Notes under the pieces: generated by a model
Databases searched by the model: none
Told to the model about the DNA's origin: nothing
The model's input: only the letters and a program-made list of their open reading frames with translations
IMG/VR virus record: IMGVR_UViG_3300001450_000190
Span: 1-28,283 of that record
Direction: 5' to 3' (one strand)
Length of the DNA stretch: 28,283 nucleotides
From: a virus
Position numbers and translations under genes: made by a program
Shown here: positions 207 to 28,099 of the stretch, piece after piece
Layout of the letters: every line of letters begins with the position of its first letter
How positions within the stretch are numbered: position 1 is the first letter of the stretch

Positions 207-236
207 CCGCCATAGCTTTATGTTATGGCGGTTTTT
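207..236 (+). terminator. Intrinsic terminator, plus strand
   Basis: A 10-bp stem CCGCCATAGC/GTTATGGCGG (one G-T pair) with loop TTTAT is followed directly by five T on the plus strand. It overlaps the last codon region of the minus-strand cytosine methylase. There is no T-run on the minus side, so it should not stop methylase transcripts. It would stop plus-strand transcription entering from the left end. Confidence 0.6.
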
Positions 237-1102
237 CCTTTGATGTGTCTATCGATCAATCCGCTATCAACGATCAATCGGCCAATGTATTCCGCGCACT
301 GAGGAACGATACTATTTCCTAGGGATCTAATTCGGTCCACCCGATCGGGAATCCCATCATCTCTTCGACAAAGGCCGGGTTCAGTCGGGAATCCTTCCCA
401 ATAGTTTCCTGCGTGTATCCCTCTTGTATCGCCGCCGACAAACTTTTGTATCCTCCTAGTTTTTTGCATTGATATCTTTCCCATTCCCTCGGTGATGCAT
501 TTTGACGGGCTGCTGTTGCAAGTGGGGTAGGCAGCATCTCGCGCCGCGCCATTCCCTGAAGCGAATATCTTTTCTTTGTGCTGCCTAAGCTTCTGTTGTA
601 TCCGTAGGTGCTCGCTGTTGGGGTAGGCAACTGCAAACCAGCGCCGCCGCAAGTGGGGAGCTCCCATTGACGAAGCTGATACAATTCCCCATTGCATATC
701 GTACCCGATTTTGGCCATTGCTCCGCAAATCTCGGGTAGCCCCAAATTAACGACATTTGGCACGTTCTCCAGGATGATAATTGACGATCGTAAAACGCTA
801 ATGTATTCGAGTAGATTGTACCAAAGACCACTTTTCTTTCCTCCGAGACCCGCCATTTTTCCGGCTGTCGATAGGTCTTGGCAGGGAAACCCCCCGCAAA
901 GAATATCAGGCCGTGGCAATGTGCGCGGGTCTGTCTGTGTGATGTCGTCGAATTTCGGCACATCTGGCCAGTGCTTAGTCAGCACTCTCCGACAAAAAGG
1001 ATCCTTTTCAATTTGCCATACCGTTTTCAAATTGGGTATCGCCCGTTCCAATCCCAGCTCAAAGCCGCCGATCCCTGAAAATGTTGATCCTAATGTTATC
1101 AT
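218..1102 (-). CDS. DNA (cytosine-5-)-methyltransferase
   Basis: This 294-aa enzyme carries the ordered C5-methylase motifs. Motif I (FSGIGGFELGL, residues 8-18) binds AdoMet. Motif IV (GGFPCQDLS) carries catalytic Cys74. Motif VI (ENV, 112-114), motif VIII (RRRW, 152-155) and motif X (LGNSIVPQ, 261-268) follow. About 100 residues between VIII and X form a short target-recognition region, so the enzyme is small for the family but complete. It transfers a methyl group to C5 of cytosine in an unknown sequence, probably shielding phage DNA from host restriction. No restriction partner is visible. The ATG at 1102 has no clear Shine-Dalgarno, and the candidate promoter would start transcription almost at the ATG, so a leaderless message is possible. 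A second long frame is nested inside it. Confidence 0.93.
   Translation of the reverse strand: MITLGSTFSGIGGFELGLERAIPNLKTVWQIEKDPFCRRVLTKHWPDVPKFDDITQTDPRTLPRPDILCGGFPCQDLSTAGKMAGLGGKKSGLWYNLLEYISVLRSSIIILENVPNVVNLGLPEICGAMAKIGYDMQWGIVSASSMGAPHLRRRWFAVAYPNSEHLRIQQKLRQHKEKIFASGNGAARDAAYPTCNSSPSKCITEGMGKISMQKTRRIQKFVGGDTRGIHAGNYWEGFPTEPGLCRRDDGIPDRVDRIRSLGNSIVPQCAEYIGRLIVDSGLIDRHIKGKTAIT
319..963 (-). CDS. Nested out-of-frame ORF, phage LPTPTA/MGFPIGWT-type protein
   Basis: An open frame of 214 codons lies on the same strand as the cytosine methylase but in a different frame. Its translation is not random. It contains SSWRTCQ, a W-PKSGT--NGELYQL segment, two LPTP blocks (LQLPTPTASTYGYN and EMLPTPLATAA) and a C-terminal LNPAFVEEMMGFPIGWTEL. 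From memory these are hallmarks of a widespread phage protein family found beside or overlapping phage C5 methylases, often annotated as hypothetical or methyltransferase-like. No strong Shine-Dalgarno precedes the ATG at 963, and an internal start is possible. It may be a genuine overlapping gene, an overprinted relic, or a by-product of codons for the VAYPNS and GIPDRVDR segments in the methylase frame. I am confident of the similarity, less so of expression. Confidence 0.45.
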   Translation of the reverse strand: MCRNSTTSHRQTRAHCHGLIFFAGGFPAKTYRQPEKWRVSEERKVVFGTIYSNTLAFYDRQLSSWRTCQMSLIWGYPRFAEQWPKSGTICNGELYQLRQWELPTCGGAGLQLPTPTASTYGYNRSLGSTKKRYSLQGMARREMLPTPLATAARQNASPREWERYQCKKLGGYKSLSAAIQEGYTQETIGKDSRLNPAFVEEMMGFPIGWTELDP

Positions 1103-2831: not shown

Positions 2832-5221
2832 TTCCCCTCCTCCGGTGCTGGTGGCGTCCAAACGTAGGAGCTCCTTTTCGTGTCCTTGTTGTACTTTCGG
2901 CGCTTGGTCCAGCCGGCGCCGGAAAGAAGCCCGGATAGCCGCATAAGCACCGCTCTGTTCTGCTGGGGCGATTCGATCTTGAGAACTTGAATCAAAAGAT
3001 CAGTCAAGGTAAATTCTTTCATATCAATCGTTTCACCTGTCATTGTAAATTTTGGTGTTGCCATATATTCAATAATTGCTTCCATCCATGAATCGATCGC
3101 CTTGTAGGGCTCCTGGTATCGGGTCAATTCCTTCTCGAAATCAATCCCGTCTTTCTCGGTCAATCGGCCGGGATCACCCCGCCGAAACTCATATACTGCA
3201 TCGGCCCAAATCAGATCGATATTTTCATCCGTCAATTTGTCCAGATCGATATTTTCCAACATAATCGGATAATATCGCCGGTCTCCAGTAGCATCCCGGA
3301 AAATCTCTAATTCGTTTGATGATCCGCAAAAAACAACCTGTCTTTTCTGGTCGATCTCATACCGCGCATAGGCGGGCCGATATGTATCGGATTGACTGGA
3401 AAGAAAGGATTTCGTGACCGTGCTATCTCTGTTCCTCGTGGAACTCAGCTCGGCGAATTCATAGATCCATTTTCCGCGGAGCTTCGAATATGAATCCCGC
3501 CCGCCCCGAATATCGATAGCCGAATCCGAAAACCAGTCGTCATTTTTCGCCAGTCTTCGAAAAAGGGTGCTCTTGCCGATGCCCTGGGCGCCGAGCAAAA
3601 TCAAAGAACAATCAACTTTACAACCTGGATCAAAGATTCGACGTACCGCGGAAACGAGCCACGCCCGCCCCATTTCGGAGATTAGAAGTTTGAAGCGTTT
3701 TTCCTCCTCTTCGTTTTCCTTTTCTCCCCGGCCCTCCGGCTTTTGTCTTTTCATAATTGTGCAGAACTCGGTTAGGAAAGTAGATGCGTACGGCTTAGCC
3801 TTATCCCTTATTCCGTCGGTCTCCAATTTCTTTAAATATTCGCGTACTGGGTGATAGATATTATCCTCCCTGCGCGCGATGAATTCGATCATCTGCCCGA
3901 CGTCCTCTTTTCGGAACTGCACGCCATAGGCCCAAGATATCTCTAGCCGCAATTCGGTAATATGGTGGTCGGCTATTCTGCTGCCCTGAAATTCCAGCTG
4001 ACCCGTAAATTCGTTGAATCGGATCAGATCGCCGATCGACACGTTCAGAGCATCGATCACCATATGACAATTAGCAAGATTCGCAATCGGTTTTCCTCTT
4101 TTAAATCGCTCCGAATAGTCATCGGGATAGCGCTCCATTTTAACAACTGGGTAGTCATCGCGATGGCCAAGATTAACACTTTTTAAAATGTTGCTGATCT
4201 CTACTTTTGCCGGCTTTTCCTCTAATGAAGCATATGCACGTTGCACCGTTTTTATAATGTAGCTCGCCGGTTTTGCTTTCTTCTCGGTGCCATCTTCGGC
4301 AACATAGTCGTAATCGCGGCCCTCATTTCTGATCTTCGCGCATAATGCATTAAATGCATCGCCGATTTCAACACGTAGCCAACTCAATTCTTTAACGAAA
4401 ACCCAGTCGTACGCGGACGCGCTCTGATCGCCTTTTCTCTTGCCCTGGTTGGCAAAATATCCGGCTAATTCGTCATTTGTATCAATCAATCGGCGCACGT
4501 TCGCCGATAGAATCGGCTTCGGTCGAAAAGAGGATTTTGGTAGTTTCGTCTTCTTCTTCTTGCTCTTCGGCACATCGAAGATAGCGCCGGCGCCGAGCAT
4601 TTCATCCAAGCCATCGAGAGAATGTATATTTCCAGCCATCGCCGCAAAAACCACGCGCACGGGATCCTTTTTCAGATGCCAGCTCAAAGGAAGACGAAGA
4701 ATTCGCGCCCCATCCCATGCATGCGTATCGCCGTCAACCCTTGCAAGCAATCTTTTATTGAGATCCTCGATCCGGTCCAAATCGATTTCCCGATCAAGAA
4801 AATAGTAGATGTGAAGACCGCCGCCGCTTTGAATAATCGCAGAGGGTTCGATCGGCAGCGCATTGACTAGCGCCCAAGTTTGATCCCGGCCCCCCGTGTC
4901 CTTGTCATCGATATCCGACCAAATAACGCGCCCGGGCGAGCAATTCGAGCGTTTCCCGTTCTCGCGGGATTTCCTGGGAAGAACACCGAAGAAAACGGCA
5001 TGATTCGCATTTTTGCATTTCTCGATCAAATTGGGAAGATGAGAAATGAGATCCGCCGCCCCATCAAAAAAGCCGCCTAGATTGTATTTTCGCCGGGCCT
5101 TTGCTCGGTCGGGAATCGGCCGTATCTCGATCAGCGATTCCGCCGGGAACATAAATTCGAGGAACTCACGGAGGAGCCTGTTTTGCTCCTGCCCATCAAC
5201 CGAGTTAAGTTTTCTATACAT
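2828..5221 (-). CDS. Primase-helicase fusion (RepB/AEP-like primase plus VapE-like ATPase)
   Basis: The protein is 797 aa from the ATG at 5221. The N-terminal third looks like an archaeo-eukaryotic-type primase of the RepB/Prim-Pol kind. It has an acidic pair in VIWSDIDDKD (about residues 99-108), then IIQSGGGLHIYYF (about 129-141) with the conserved S-G-G-x-H pattern. The C-terminal part is a VapE-type ATPase, with Walker A GAQGIGKST (about 544-552), acidic YEFAELS (about 587-593) and the sensor-like DATGDRRYYP (about 643-652). It probably lays primers and unwinds DNA at the phage origin, replacing separate primase and helicase genes. The start at 5221 is preferred over 5263 because it follows AAAGG in the shared CATTCAAACAAAGG leader. 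Confidence 0.88.
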   Translation of the reverse strand: MYRKLNSVDGQEQNRLLREFLEFMFPAESLIEIRPIPDRAKARRKYNLGGFFDGAADLISHLPNLIEKCKNANHAVFFGVLPRKSRENGKRSNCSPGRVIWSDIDDKDTGGRDQTWALVNALPIEPSAIIQSGGGLHIYYFLDREIDLDRIEDLNKRLLARVDGDTHAWDGARILRLPLSWHLKKDPVRVVFAAMAGNIHSLDGLDEMLGAGAIFDVPKSKKKKTKLPKSSFRPKPILSANVRRLIDTNDELAGYFANQGKRKGDQSASAYDWVFVKELSWLRVEIGDAFNALCAKIRNEGRDYDYVAEDGTEKKAKPASYIIKTVQRAYASLEEKPAKVEISNILKSVNLGHRDDYPVVKMERYPDDYSERFKRGKPIANLANCHMVIDALNVSIGDLIRFNEFTGQLEFQGSRIADHHITELRLEISWAYGVQFRKEDVGQMIEFIARREDNIYHPVREYLKKLETDGIRDKAKPYASTFLTEFCTIMKRQKPEGRGEKENEEEEKRFKLLISEMGRAWLVSAVRRIFDPGCKVDCSLILLGAQGIGKSTLFRRLAKNDDWFSDSAIDIRGGRDSYSKLRGKWIYEFAELSSTRNRDSTVTKSFLSSQSDTYRPAYARYEIDQKRQVVFCGSSNELEIFRDATGDRRYYPIMLENIDLDKLTDENIDLIWADAVYEFRRGDPGRLTEKDGIDFEKELTRYQEPYKAIDSWMEAIIEYMATPKFTMTGETIDMKEFTLTDLLIQVLKIESPQQNRAVLMRLSGLLSGAGWTKRRKYNKDTKRSSYVWTPPAPEEGK

Positions 5222-21994: not shown

Positions 21995-23362
21995 ATGGCG
22001 GGTTTTTCTGGTGGTGGTGGTGGTGGTGGTGCTGTTTCGTCCGTGACGAATGGCGCGGATAATCGAATAGCATTGTTTGGATCCGCTGATGCTTTGAAAG
22101 CGGATACCGGGCTAACATATTCAGGGTCTGAATTTGCTGTAACAGGTGATATAAGCTCAACTGGTAACTTTTACGGGAGCCAGTTTTTTTATCATTCAGG
22201 TGATACCGACACGAGTATCAAATTCATGGTGGATCAAATTAATTTGACCGCTGGAAATATCAACATGCTGAAAATCAAAGAAGCAGCTCAGAACGAGGTT
22301 GTGTTTTTTGAGGATGGTAACGAAGTCGATTTTCGTATCGAGGTTCCCGGGCAAGCCTATTTCTTCTTTATTGATTCCGGAAATGATAAATTATACATCG
22401 GCGGAAACACTGCCAACAAAATGACCGATCAAATGATGAATCTTCAGGATGGTAATTTCGGGATAGGTCGAAACAGCGCGGACAATATCGGATCAGAAGT
22501 AATTTATGCAAAGAGCCGGCACGCTACGGATGGATCTCATACTGTTCTTCAGGCGGCTGATAACATCGGGGAAATTGTATTTAAGGGATCAGACGGTGAT
22601 GAGCTGGTCAATGCGGCTAAAATTGTTGGCGGGATTGATTACGGTACTCCTGCAAATAATGATATGCCGGGAAAACTCACTTTTTATACAACTCCCGACG
22701 GAAGTGTTACACCGACGGAAGCGCTTAGAATAGGTCAAGGACAACACGCTGTTTTTCCAAATGGCTCATTATTGGTTCAAGGGTCTGCAAATGGAACGGA
22801 ACTAGGAGGAGGCACAAATGCATGGGCTGGTTTTTGTCTCGATTTTTTTGCAACCGCCTACGATGGGAAAGATGGCGCTAGACTCATTATAAGAGGGGAT
22901 TCAACAAATGCTGATCGTGGTACATTCATCATTCATCAAAACAAAAATGATAATTCCGCGGCTCTCGAAACTGTTCAAATCGATGAGGATGGAAATTTTA
23001 AAACTATTGGCGGGTCTGTTGGTTCAATTTCCGATTCGAGAGTAAAAGAAAATGTTTCTTCTTTGGGATCAGTAATCAGCAAAATAAAGCAATTAAATCC
23101 GGTTGAATTCGATTGGGCCGATCCCATAAAAAATAACAATCCTGCGAGAACTTCTAACCATGATTTTGGTTTTATCGCTCAAGAAGCTGAGATAATTTAT
23201 CCCGATATGATCTATACTGGTGCTGTGACTAATGATGACATGCCAGACAACATCAAGACCATGACCTATGCTTCAATGATCCCGATTCTGACAAAAGCCA
23301 TCCAGGAACAACAGCAACAGATCGAAGATCTGCTAGCGCGTATTGTAGCGCTCGAAAGTTAA
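21995..23362 (+). CDS. Tail fibre/spike with C-terminal S74 self-cleaving chaperone
   Basis: In this 455-aa protein a polyglycine hinge (seven GGT codons in a row) opens it. A beta-repeat body with phrases such as ALKADTGLTYSGSEFAVTGDIS follows. The last 112 residues are a peptidase S74 intramolecular chaperone: SISDSRVKE with the Ser348-Lys351 dyad, VEFDW, HDFGFIAQEAE, and a terminal coiled coil (QEQQQQIEDLLARIVAL). The chaperone drives trimerisation and then cuts itself off before Ser348. It is the likely host-range protein. It runs against all neighbouring structural genes and is more AT-rich, suggesting acquisition as a cassette. Confidence 0.88.
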   Translation: MAGFSGGGGGGGAVSSVTNGADNRIALFGSADALKADTGLTYSGSEFAVTGDISSTGNFYGSQFFYHSGDTDTSIKFMVDQINLTAGNINMLKIKEAAQNEVVFFEDGNEVDFRIEVPGQAYFFFIDSGNDKLYIGGNTANKMTDQMMNLQDGNFGIGRNSADNIGSEVIYAKSRHATDGSHTVLQAADNIGEIVFKGSDGDELVNAAKIVGGIDYGTPANNDMPGKLTFYTTPDGSVTPTEALRIGQGQHAVFPNGSLLVQGSANGTELGGGTNAWAGFCLDFFATAYDGKDGARLIIRGDSTNADRGTFIIHQNKNDNSAALETVQIDEDGNFKTIGGSVGSISDSRVKENVSSLGSVISKIKQLNPVEFDWADPIKNNNPARTSNHDFGFIAQEAEIIYPDMIYTGAVTNDDMPDNIKTMTYASMIPILTKAIQEQQQQIEDLLARIVALES

Positions 23363-25477: not shown

Positions 25478-26923
25478 TCACCTGATAATTTTTATGTGGG
25501 TTTTTCTTGGCTGCCGGTATTCCTTGGATAGGATCTGAAGACTCGCATATCTCAACGCGTCGATCCCGTGCTTGTATTGGGAATTTTTGTCAAGCTGTCC
25601 GGATTTTAGGATAGCCCAATTCCGGATTGACTTGATAAGACTAGCACATCGTGGATGAACCTGAAAACAGTCTTTTTGCATTAATTCATGTAGCGCACGA
25701 ATCCCATAATACACTGAAAAGGCGGGCTTGTATGCAGTGTTTATCGTAAATCCCTTGCCGGATGGGTAGCCGAGAATATGCGCGAATGCTGCACGTAGCA
25801 TCTTGTTAGACATCCTTGATCCGTATTTGTCGCCGCGATGCGGCCGGTCTCCTACCCATCGGAATATGTTATTCGGTTCAAGCCTATTTCTCTTGAGCAT
25901 TGCTAGAATTCCTTTTGCGTGCGTTTCCGCTTTGGCGCTTCCAGATTGATATTCATCTAGAACGTAAAGATAATAATCCCCGGGTTTTCTGTCCATCGGA
26001 TCCGGGATTCGGACCGCTATCAATACGGCGAATTGGGCGCCTTCCTGGCTACCGTGATCGATGCCCACTGCGTACTGAAAATTACCAGTAGGAGGAGGAG
26101 CGCTGCTTATGAATTCGGGCCGGAAATCCTTGAAAATTACCCCGTGCGATACGTAGCCCTCCCACGCGCCCGATATTCTGATTTCACGGTCAAATTCCAG
26201 ATAGGAATTCGTGATTTGCTCAATTTCAGCAATTGATAAGAGGGGGTCGCAATTGCGGGGGGTCACATTCTGCACGGTAAGGGGCGCCTGAATATCGAGC
26301 ATTATGCCATCATCGCATAATTTCTTTATGTGACTGCAATCAACCCCCACGGGTGTCATAGTTATAGCGATTTGCCCGCGCTTTCTCAATACCCGTCCGA
26401 CAAGCTCCGACCAGACCAAAGGACCGCAAGGTTCGTCGACAAGCACAAAATCAATCGTTCCCGATGCTAGGGCTATTGTACCCTTTGAAGATCCGCCGGT
26501 CTGCTGTGTCGTTTTTATACGGATAATACTACCATTTTTGAATGATATAACCGGAGTACCGGTACCGTGGAAGCCGCGCGCCGGCGAGAATACCGTTTTT
26601 TCCACCACTTCGTTTTTCGGCAATAGATCCCATAGCCTATTCTGTATTTCCACGGATTGAGACCAGCTGTGACAGATCACCCATACCTGAACGGGAGGAG
26701 ATGTAACTGGCTTAAATCGGTGCTTGCCAAGCGCTCTAAATATGCACTCGGCCGCCCCTGCAAAACTTTTTCCGATTTGGTTTCCTCCACGCAATAGATA
26801 GAATTTTTCTCGGCAGGAAAGAAAGCGCTCTTGAGCTGGGGTAAAACGCGCGTATTCAAGCGGGTTTTCATGCACCCGTTTTTTTAATTCCTGTAGATTC
26901 GTGTGTAGACTCGTGAGATTCAT
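25478..26923 (-). CDS. terL: Terminase large subunit
   Basis: In this 481-aa protein the ATPase has Walker A RGGNQIGKS (residues 45-53) and Walker B DFVLVDEP with Asp163 and Glu164. The nuclease domain has VGIDHGSQEG (Asp289) and a late HGIDALRYA that supplies another acidic residue. The enzyme translocates DNA into the prohead and cuts the genome ends. It overlaps the upstream methylase by 4 bp (ATGA). With the short terminal repeat of the window, cos-type cutting is expected. Confidence 0.93.
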   Translation of the reverse strand: MNLTSLHTNLQELKKRVHENPLEYARFTPAQERFLSCREKFYLLRGGNQIGKSFAGAAECIFRALGKHRFKPVTSPPVQVWVICHSWSQSVEIQNRLWDLLPKNEVVEKTVFSPARGFHGTGTPVISFKNGSIIRIKTTQQTGGSSKGTIALASGTIDFVLVDEPCGPLVWSELVGRVLRKRGQIAITMTPVGVDCSHIKKLCDDGIMLDIQAPLTVQNVTPRNCDPLLSIAEIEQITNSYLEFDREIRISGAWEGYVSHGVIFKDFRPEFISSAPPPTGNFQYAVGIDHGSQEGAQFAVLIAVRIPDPMDRKPGDYYLYVLDEYQSGSAKAETHAKGILAMLKRNRLEPNNIFRWVGDRPHRGDKYGSRMSNKMLRAAFAHILGYPSGKGFTINTAYKPAFSVYYGIRALHELMQKDCFQVHPRCASLIKSIRNWAILKSGQLDKNSQYKHGIDALRYASLQILSKEYRQPRKTHIKIIR

Positions 26924-27555
26924 CGGCTACCAAAAAGAAGGAGCTGTTTCTGGTCTTCTTTCAGCCTGTTCTGTGCACCCTCAAAATAATCCCGGTCGAT
27001 TTCATACCCGTCAAATTCAAATCCCATTCTATGCGCCGCGATCGCGGATGATCCCGATCCAAGATGAGTATCAAGAATTGAAAATCCCTTCTTCGCATAT
27101 TTTGATAGAAGCCATTCGTATAATTGGATGGGTTTCTGTGTTGGATGAATTTTATATCCTGTTACGTTTATATTTCTATGCTTAAAAAGTTCTGTTTGTC
27201 CTTTAAAAGAAGTCCATGCTAATTCTATTTTTGAATATGTAGGCATGAATTGAACTTTATCCCAGCAAATCCAGCATCGACTCAAAGGAAGTTTATCCGT
27301 GAAATATTGTCCACCCCAAACAATTTGGTTTTTTGTTTTTCTACGCAAAAAATCAAAATAATCTTTTGTTGGTGGATGATCCCATTTATCAATTGCTTGG
27401 TTATGATATGCCTTATGTTCTGATCCCTTAATTCCTCCTGATTGCGCGCCTAGTCTTTTCATTCCATACGGAGGATCAACAATTGCAAGATCCCAATGAT
27501 CATCCGGCGCCTCTTTCATTGCCTTCATGCAATCCTGGTAATGAAGTCTAATCAT
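26920..27555 (-). CDS. DNA N6-adenine/N4-cytosine methylase between terminase genes
   Basis: The protein is 211 aa from the ATG at 27555 (GTG two codons earlier is possible). DPPYG (about 27-31) is the catalytic motif. HPTQKP (about 137-142) and LDTHLGSGSS (about 161-170, AdoMet binding) follow, the order of beta-class enzymes. The target is unknown. Placement inside the packaging operon suggests methylation coordinated with late replication or packaging. The middle of the gene (about 27140-27420) is visibly AT-richer than TerS and TerL, a sign of acquisition. No restriction enzyme is nearby. Confidence 0.9.
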   Translation of the reverse strand: MIRLHYQDCMKAMKEAPDDHWDLAIVDPPYGMKRLGAQSGGIKGSEHKAYHNQAIDKWDHPPTKDYFDFLRRKTKNQIVWGGQYFTDKLPLSRCWICWDKVQFMPTYSKIELAWTSFKGQTELFKHRNINVTGYKIHPTQKPIQLYEWLLSKYAKKGFSILDTHLGSGSSAIAAHRMGFEFDGYEIDRDYFEGAQNRLKEDQKQLLLFGSR

Positions 27556-28099
27556 TTTCACGCACCTGGGGAAAGGTGATAACGCGCGATTCCTTCGCCA
27601 TGATTTCTTTTTCTAGCTTCTGACGTATGACGGGGGGTAGCTGTGCGATCGTGGAAAGGATCCCGCTTACCAGCCCATCCGATTCCATCGTCGCCGCAAT
27701 TTCCTTTTGCGCCTGATTTAGCTTTTCACATTCGTCGTAGAGATTCAAGTGCAACCTATGAAGAGAGGGCAACACATTGTATTGTCCGCGCTCCCGGCAT
27801 GCGTGCAAATCCAGATTCACCTCTTCCAATTTTCCACTCTTGAATTGAAGGGGGGGTATGTGCTCGCCAGGATTCGGCGGGGGAATTTTTTTGGCTGGTT
27901 CCTGTTTTCGTGGTGGCAGCTGCGATTGCTTGACACTTCTCTGCACGCTGGCGCCGGCTGGTTCTTTTATGATCCGGTCAATCGTTGATTTTCCACATCC
28001 AAAATGCTCAGCTAGTTTCCTCATAGAGAATTTCTTCGTCGCATAGAGGCGCTTTACATCCTCCCGCTCAGCCGGGGATAGGTTAGCCCTTTTTTTCAT
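27548..28099 (-). CDS. terS: Terminase small subunit
   Basis: In this 183-aa protein the N-terminal HTH (LSPAEREDVKRLYATKKFSM, then LAEHFGCGKSTIDRIIKEP) is typical of TerS DNA-binding domains. A proline/lysine linker, then helices including a putative oligomerisation region (LNLYDECEKLNQAQKEIAATM) follow. The ATG at 28099 is chosen because the HTH begins right after it; the longer frame to 28225 adds a low-complexity Arg/Ser/Lys leader. It recognises the packaging site, here probably the joined ends less than 200 bp away. Confidence 0.82.
   Translation of the reverse strand: MKKRANLSPAEREDVKRLYATKKFSMRKLAEHFGCGKSTIDRIIKEPAGASVQRSVKQSQLPPRKQEPAKKIPPPNPGEHIPPLQFKSGKLEEVNLDLHACRERGQYNVLPSLHRLHLNLYDECEKLNQAQKEIAATMESDGLVSGILSTIAQLPPVIRQKLEKEIMAKESRVITFPQVREND

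Follow-up and report, generated by a model that had tools for sequence, protein, structure and literature searches.

Based on the analysis of a C5-cytosine methyltransferase gene in a phage genome and of its relatives, we propose that the locus very probably encodes one heterodimeric C5 methyltransferase from two frames of the same strand, with the motif layout of M.EcoHK31I. The larger product, alpha, is the catalytic half, with the AdoMet site, the catalytic cysteine, motifs I-VIII and a C-terminal motif X helix, as judged from sequence and predicted fold. The smaller product, beta, would be an integral subunit of about 170 aa, arising by internal initiation at the GTG at position 831 behind its own GGAGG, as indicated by the sequence and its conservation. 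Beta would contribute motif IX and, we infer, the small DNA-recognising domain missing from alpha, which would probably place recognition in beta, and the two chains would assemble into the active enzyme. As a single message from a single stretch of DNA specifies both, alpha and beta would be produced together. Judging from phage biology in general, the enzyme probably serves to protect the phage's own DNA from host restriction by modifying it.

The two reading frames

The window denotes the whole stretch of viral DNA that was analysed, 28,283 nucleotides in length; the features of the locus are collected in Table 1. A second DNA methyltransferase (N6_N4_Mtase, PF01555, E 2e-14) is located at 26920-27561 (-), beside the terminase genes, giving a phage with both cytosine-C5 and amino-type methylases. 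A 455-aa ORF at 21995-23362 (+), on the opposite strand to the structural genes around it, has at its C terminus the endosialidase chaperone domain Peptidase_S74 (E 7e-12).

Table 1. Features of the methyltransferase locus, in positions of the window.
Feature	Position	Strand	Remarks
Window			28,283-base virus record; phage genes present: terminase, ERF, RusA, tail genes
Alpha, C5-cytosine methyltransferase frame	218..1102	(-)	294 aa; motifs I-VIII and X; motif IX unrecognisable
Motif IV of alpha (GFPCQ, catalytic cysteine)	878..892	(-)	invariant columns G71-Q75
Motif VI of alpha (ENV)	761..769	(-)	invariant columns E112-V114
Motif VIII of alpha (GAPHLRRR)	641..664	(-)	conserved columns 147-154
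Alpha residues 183-233, linker	404..556	(-)	unconserved; predicted disordered, pLDDT below 50
Motif X, alpha frame (LGNSIVPQ)	299..322	(-)	invariant L261-G262-N263; AF2 helix, pLDDT about 95
Longer beta-frame ORF	319..963	(-)	214 codons, ATG start; entirely within the alpha ORF
In-frame extension up to ATG 963	832..963	(-)	probably untranslated as beta
Shine-Dalgarno-like GGAGG within alpha coding sequence	840..844	(-)	counterpart in 30/31 WW relatives
Likely beta start GTG	829..831	(-)	8 nt 3' of GGAGG; 3-4 codons from the ATG conserved in the WW subgroup
Beta, nested +1-frame gene (likely extent)	319..831	(-)	GTG start, 170 aa plus stop; motif IX
Beta N-terminal module, SSWRTCQ...WPKSGTICNGELY	664..831	(-)	overprinted on alpha motifs V-VIII
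Motif IX, beta frame (LNPAFVEEMMGFPIGWT)	334..384	(-)	nearly invariant in 45 beta proteins

The 214-codon frame that the initial annotation had described inside the methylase gene is present, and so are the LPTPTA segment and the second segment quoted from it. Relative to alpha, beta is read in the +1 frame, its codons starting at alpha codon position 2, and the same relation of the beta match to alpha was seen in all relatives scored, including those from bacterial and archaeal-MAG contigs and E. coli prophages. The third codon position of alpha is the second of beta, so that silent changes in alpha alter beta amino acids. When the synonymous codons of alpha were reshuffled 20,000 times, 18 trials gave an open +1 frame that equalled or exceeded the 219 codons observed (about 1 in 1,100), which is unusual, but for a single sequence not decisive; it is the family evidence that decides.

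Constraint and translation start across relatives

Relatives were drawn from viral contigs, bacterial and archaeal contigs, phage records, plasmids and E. coli genomes, and about 68 non-redundant ones entered codon alignments, from which differences were counted pairwise. Third-position differences per site in alpha amount to about 0.30-0.34 before codon 87, fall to 0.12-0.15 in codons 87-146, reach a minimum of 0.08 at codons 241-261 and return to 0.29 past the beta stop. In 25 independent pairs, synonymous change was 0.147 inside vs 0.303 outside the overlap (Wilcoxon p 0.001), the value inside being the lower one in 19 pairs and the opposite holding in 6 (sign test). The boundaries of this constraint differ between two subgroups, with the third-position drop located at codon 87 in subgroup WW and at codon 63 in subgroup FY; the end of beta differs between the two as well, and the constraint tracks it in each.

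To obtain a null for the methylase shadow, the synonymous codons of each relative were shuffled 200 times, and beta-frame identity and stops were recounted. Observed beta identity is 0.340 compared to 0.189 in this null, all 67 of the 67 relatives lie above every one of their 200 shuffles, and the beta frame contains 20 stops vs 277 expected. Controls were canonical single-chain C5-methylases from bacterial genomes, as other control queries gave too few viral relatives; their third-position profile is flat (0.42-0.60) and the corresponding +1 stretch holds 2-8 stops. As judged from conservation among the relatives, the second frame is a real second gene, i.e. dual coding and not a shadow of the methylase. 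The earlier reading of the overlap as overprinting or dual coding is thereby upheld by the depressed synonymous variation, the conserved start and ribosome-binding site, and homology above the methylase shadow.

In the WW subgroup, the beta frame is rich in stops before codon 87 and constrained only from there on. An ATG is found at the same place in 31 of 31 members, preceded by a Shine-Dalgarno match of at least 4 bases in 30, and the alpha residues over this ATG are variable (D, H or N, then G or E). An ATG is missing from this position in the window, which instead carries the GTG at 831, 3-4 codons away; no Shine-Dalgarno site was found in the window sequence ahead of ATG 963. Hence, rather than the full 319-963 extent initially assigned, constraint and the Shine-Dalgarno sequence favour GTG 831 as the likely beta start. 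For subgroup FY, in which beta is both open and under constraint from codon 63 onwards, this suggests an upstream start, and the window may, with lower probability, use one as well.

Motifs and predicted fold of alpha

The initial annotation had credited the methylase frame with every catalytic motif. Motifs I, IV (PCQ), VI (ENV) and VIII of the PF00145 C5-methyltransferase family are indeed present, and alpha matches PHROG 363; however, the Pfam match (E 3.7e-43) covers aa 4-179 only, the TIGR00675 match likewise stops at residue 178-179, and canonical motif IX was not found. Neither these two profiles, nor the AF2 model, nor profile alignment, which is not significant past residue 165, revealed the in-frame target-recognition domain and motif IX of single-chain enzymes in alpha. 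The conserved W..FP segment of alpha, near residues 235-239, could represent a degenerate motif IX, for which profile comparison gave a probability of 0.2%.

In the AF2 model, alpha is ordered in residues 1-180, disordered in 183-233 and ordered again in the motif X helix, 254-293. Superposition on M.HhaI aligns 196 of 327 residues (Z 22.8), consistent with a large domain without the small domain. The linker occupies the place that the target-recognition domain takes in a normal enzyme, and beta is the better-conserved frame there. The overlap had been thought to include the target-recognition region of alpha, but the segment in question is poorly conserved and predicted to be disordered. In alpha codons 187-240, position 1 changes faster than positions 2 and 3, the order predicted for a region in which beta is the principal coding frame.

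Motif IX and the N-terminal module of beta

The C-terminal end of beta is motif IX (LNPAFVEEMMGFPIGWTEL). Around this motif, identity is 0.73 for beta, 0.56 for alpha and 0.28 for the shadow, and the motif is placed in beta and absent from alpha in the window and in 123 nested relatives (duplicates included). The assignment was reached via split-type relatives, in which IX and X lie together in the +1 frame: nested beta matches their motif IX (E 4e-13), and their IX-X segment aligns with the canonical one in register (E 2e-5, probability 77%). The homology rests on this bridge, because the direct comparison of nested beta with canonical motif IX is not significant (E 0.05); full-length profiles of beta and of canonical methylases gave no match when compared.

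Conserved blocks in beta are SWRTSQ...PKSG.MRNG.LY, LPTPT and LNPxFVEEMMGFPxGWT, the last of them being motif IX, and the N-terminal module is marked by constraint at alpha codons 87-166. The resemblance of beta to a phage protein family, recognised at the outset, is borne out by PHROG 1008 'DNA methyltransferase' (E 8e-23), but among the annotated relatives examined every copy is nested in a methylase gene or overlaps one, and the free-standing form that had been supposed was not seen. The structure model of beta is poor (pLDDT 59, pTM 0.23) and a fold search with it gave no match, so that the small-domain role of beta is a putative one. A 45-residue match of the beta profile to glycolipid transfer protein among PDB sequences (E 8e-4) was dismissed as chance, the biology being unlike and no motif being shared.

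Layouts among relatives

Loci with recognisable motifs were scored mechanically, duplicates included, as nested (IX in +1, X in alpha; the window type), split (IX and X in +1) or all-in-alpha (both in alpha), giving 123, 41 and 22 loci, respectively. Motifs IX and X shift between frames, and the beta N-terminal module, unexpectedly, remains +1 in all three groups. In the split and all-in-alpha groups too, alpha third positions are low under this module (0.10-0.23 in codons 113-140) and its homology exceeds the shadow null to an equal degree, the all-in-alpha sample being small (21 non-redundant) and GC-rich. As the module is kept where both IX and X are in alpha, donation of motif IX is not the sole role of beta.

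The family is found in many phages (e.g. Shelly gp55/56, Vash, Firecracker, Andrew, Lemur, Florinda and Batiatus), in Bacteroidota, Planctomycetota and archaeal MAGs, and in E. coli prophages (e.g. PT62). In the Paenibacillus phage Shelly (L202:924-1961 and 1108-1812), the nested beta was submitted as a hypothetical protein, 'g55 internal gene', with no function; in Synechococcus phage S-H1, alpha is annotated and beta is not. Apparently single-chain methylases of the actinophage type (L204, L209, L213-L233, L312-L326) have a conserved +1 module, WETGQMDLFSE...TSGMTRNG, that extends no further than the in-frame motif IX; several of these loci have the +1 stop exactly at this motif. The E. coli PT62 prophage (L382:434-1420 and 3392-4129) has two C5-methylase genes, each with a motif-IX-like +1 segment, the first of them belonging to a very different sequence family. 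On an Embleya plasmid (L172:1726-4876), a split alpha/beta pair is followed by a second methylase that has IX and X in alpha and overlies a beta-like +1 module, such that two layouts adjoin. In a relative from E. coli PCP07014 (L381:3371-4132) that is annotated as a pseudogene, the alpha frame is interrupted by an internal stop and the beta frame by another.

Alternative explanations

The second frame could be a shadow ORF, open and apparently conserved merely through conservation of the methylase protein. A conserved protein does yield a partly conserved shadow (null identity 0.19), and a +1 frame of this length, at the frequency obtained by reshuffling, is not negligible over many genes. However, the low synonymous change is bounded by the start and stop of beta, with boundaries that differ between the two subgroups, the homology exceeds the shadow null in every relative compared, start and ribosome-binding site are conserved, and the canonical controls are flat and stop-rich. 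The shadow explanation is refuted by these observations, and we regard it as extremely improbable; to keep it, one would have to assume a non-coding constraint on DNA or RNA whose boundaries coincide exactly with these. Beta might instead be a +1 ribosomal-frameshift extension of alpha with no start of its own, in agreement with the invariable +1 relation, with the FY relatives, which are open upstream of codon 87 and lack the conserved ATG there, and with the status of the beta start as a sequence prediction. Against this, WW members have beta-frame stops just upstream, followed by the conserved ATG with its Shine-Dalgarno match, fusion at the beta start would drop motifs V-VIII, and the window itself has GGAGG and GTG in place, making a frameshift very improbable.

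According to the initial annotation, the second product may modulate a methylase that is sufficient by itself. A separate regulator would accommodate the constraint on the beta N-terminal module even where motifs I-X are all in the alpha frame, which points to a role beyond donating IX. Yet the window and its nested relatives carry IX in beta and not in alpha, and alpha has no ordered recognition domain, and we consider a mere modulator unlikely; carrying the motif that alpha is missing, beta is most likely an essential subunit. For the heterodimer that we favour, a wider generalisation suggests itself, which we hold to be as likely as not: throughout a large superfamily of C5-methylases from phages and bacteria, the +1 protein could have arisen by overprinting on the catalytic domain and be an obligate second subunit. 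If true, many enzymes now listed as single-chain would in fact be heterodimers whose partner has escaped annotation.

Implications

Long same-strand nested genes with both products conserved are rare beyond a few textbook viruses, and this family is widespread, with a constraint signal that is clear, repeatable and has its own boundaries. Beta is usually missed in gene annotation, as pipelines drop or shorten it, and methylases cloned from annotation alone would probably yield inactive enzyme. The three layouts suggest a route for motif transfer between overlapping frames, and the new domain represents a case of a conserved protein module arising by overprinting. The apparent novelty lies in how broad the family is, in the clean evidence of constraint and in the fact that the overprinted module persists in enzymes which annotation treats as single-chain.

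Relation to known systems

One or two bacterial restriction systems are known in which both enzyme parts come from overlapping frames of the same strand. M.EcoHK31I is the YGGCCR methyltransferase of an E. coli restriction system, and M.EaeI is similar. Lee et al. (1995) reportedly described two M.EcoHK31I polypeptides of about 309 and 176 aa, of which the smaller is encoded in an alternative frame inside the larger gene; the sizes are 294 and 170 aa in the window, where the smaller subunit is likewise nested in the larger gene, in the other frame of the same strand. Whereas M.EcoHK31I belongs to a restriction system, the window holds a phage gene, and no restriction endonuclease gene was recognised among the ORFs near the methylase, the small neighbouring ones having been searched in part. 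A DNA search of E. coli genomes for an EcoHK31I relative returned prophage enzymes only.

M.HhaI shares the large domain and the motif X helix with alpha, but it is a single chain whose recognition domain and motif IX are in frame, and the single-chain control set has neither constraint nor an open run in the +1 frame. M.AquI, the two-subunit CYCGRG methyltransferase, is likewise split into a catalytic part and a motif-IX part; its small subunit, however, holds IX, X and the distal variable region together, which fits the split type of Vash and Firecracker and not the window. The paired 'DNA methylase' genes of actinophages (Vash, Firecracker, Andrew and Lemur) overlap with no mechanism stated, and in the actinophages examined motif X stands beside IX in beta, whereas it is in alpha in the window. 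An out-of-frame HNH insertion in a phage methylase, described for ShiLan (PMC11855218), is a different phenomenon, i.e. an inserted homing gene. A literature search covering part of the literature found no paper describing the nested layout in phages; Shelly gp55/gp56 show it as in the window and are annotated without a stated mechanism. The closest likeness is in the published motif layout of M.EcoHK31I, with motifs I-VIII and X in the larger subunit and motif IX only in the smaller polypeptide (PMC3404938), and by this layout the window locus most likely belongs to the M.EcoHK31I kind, here in a phage.
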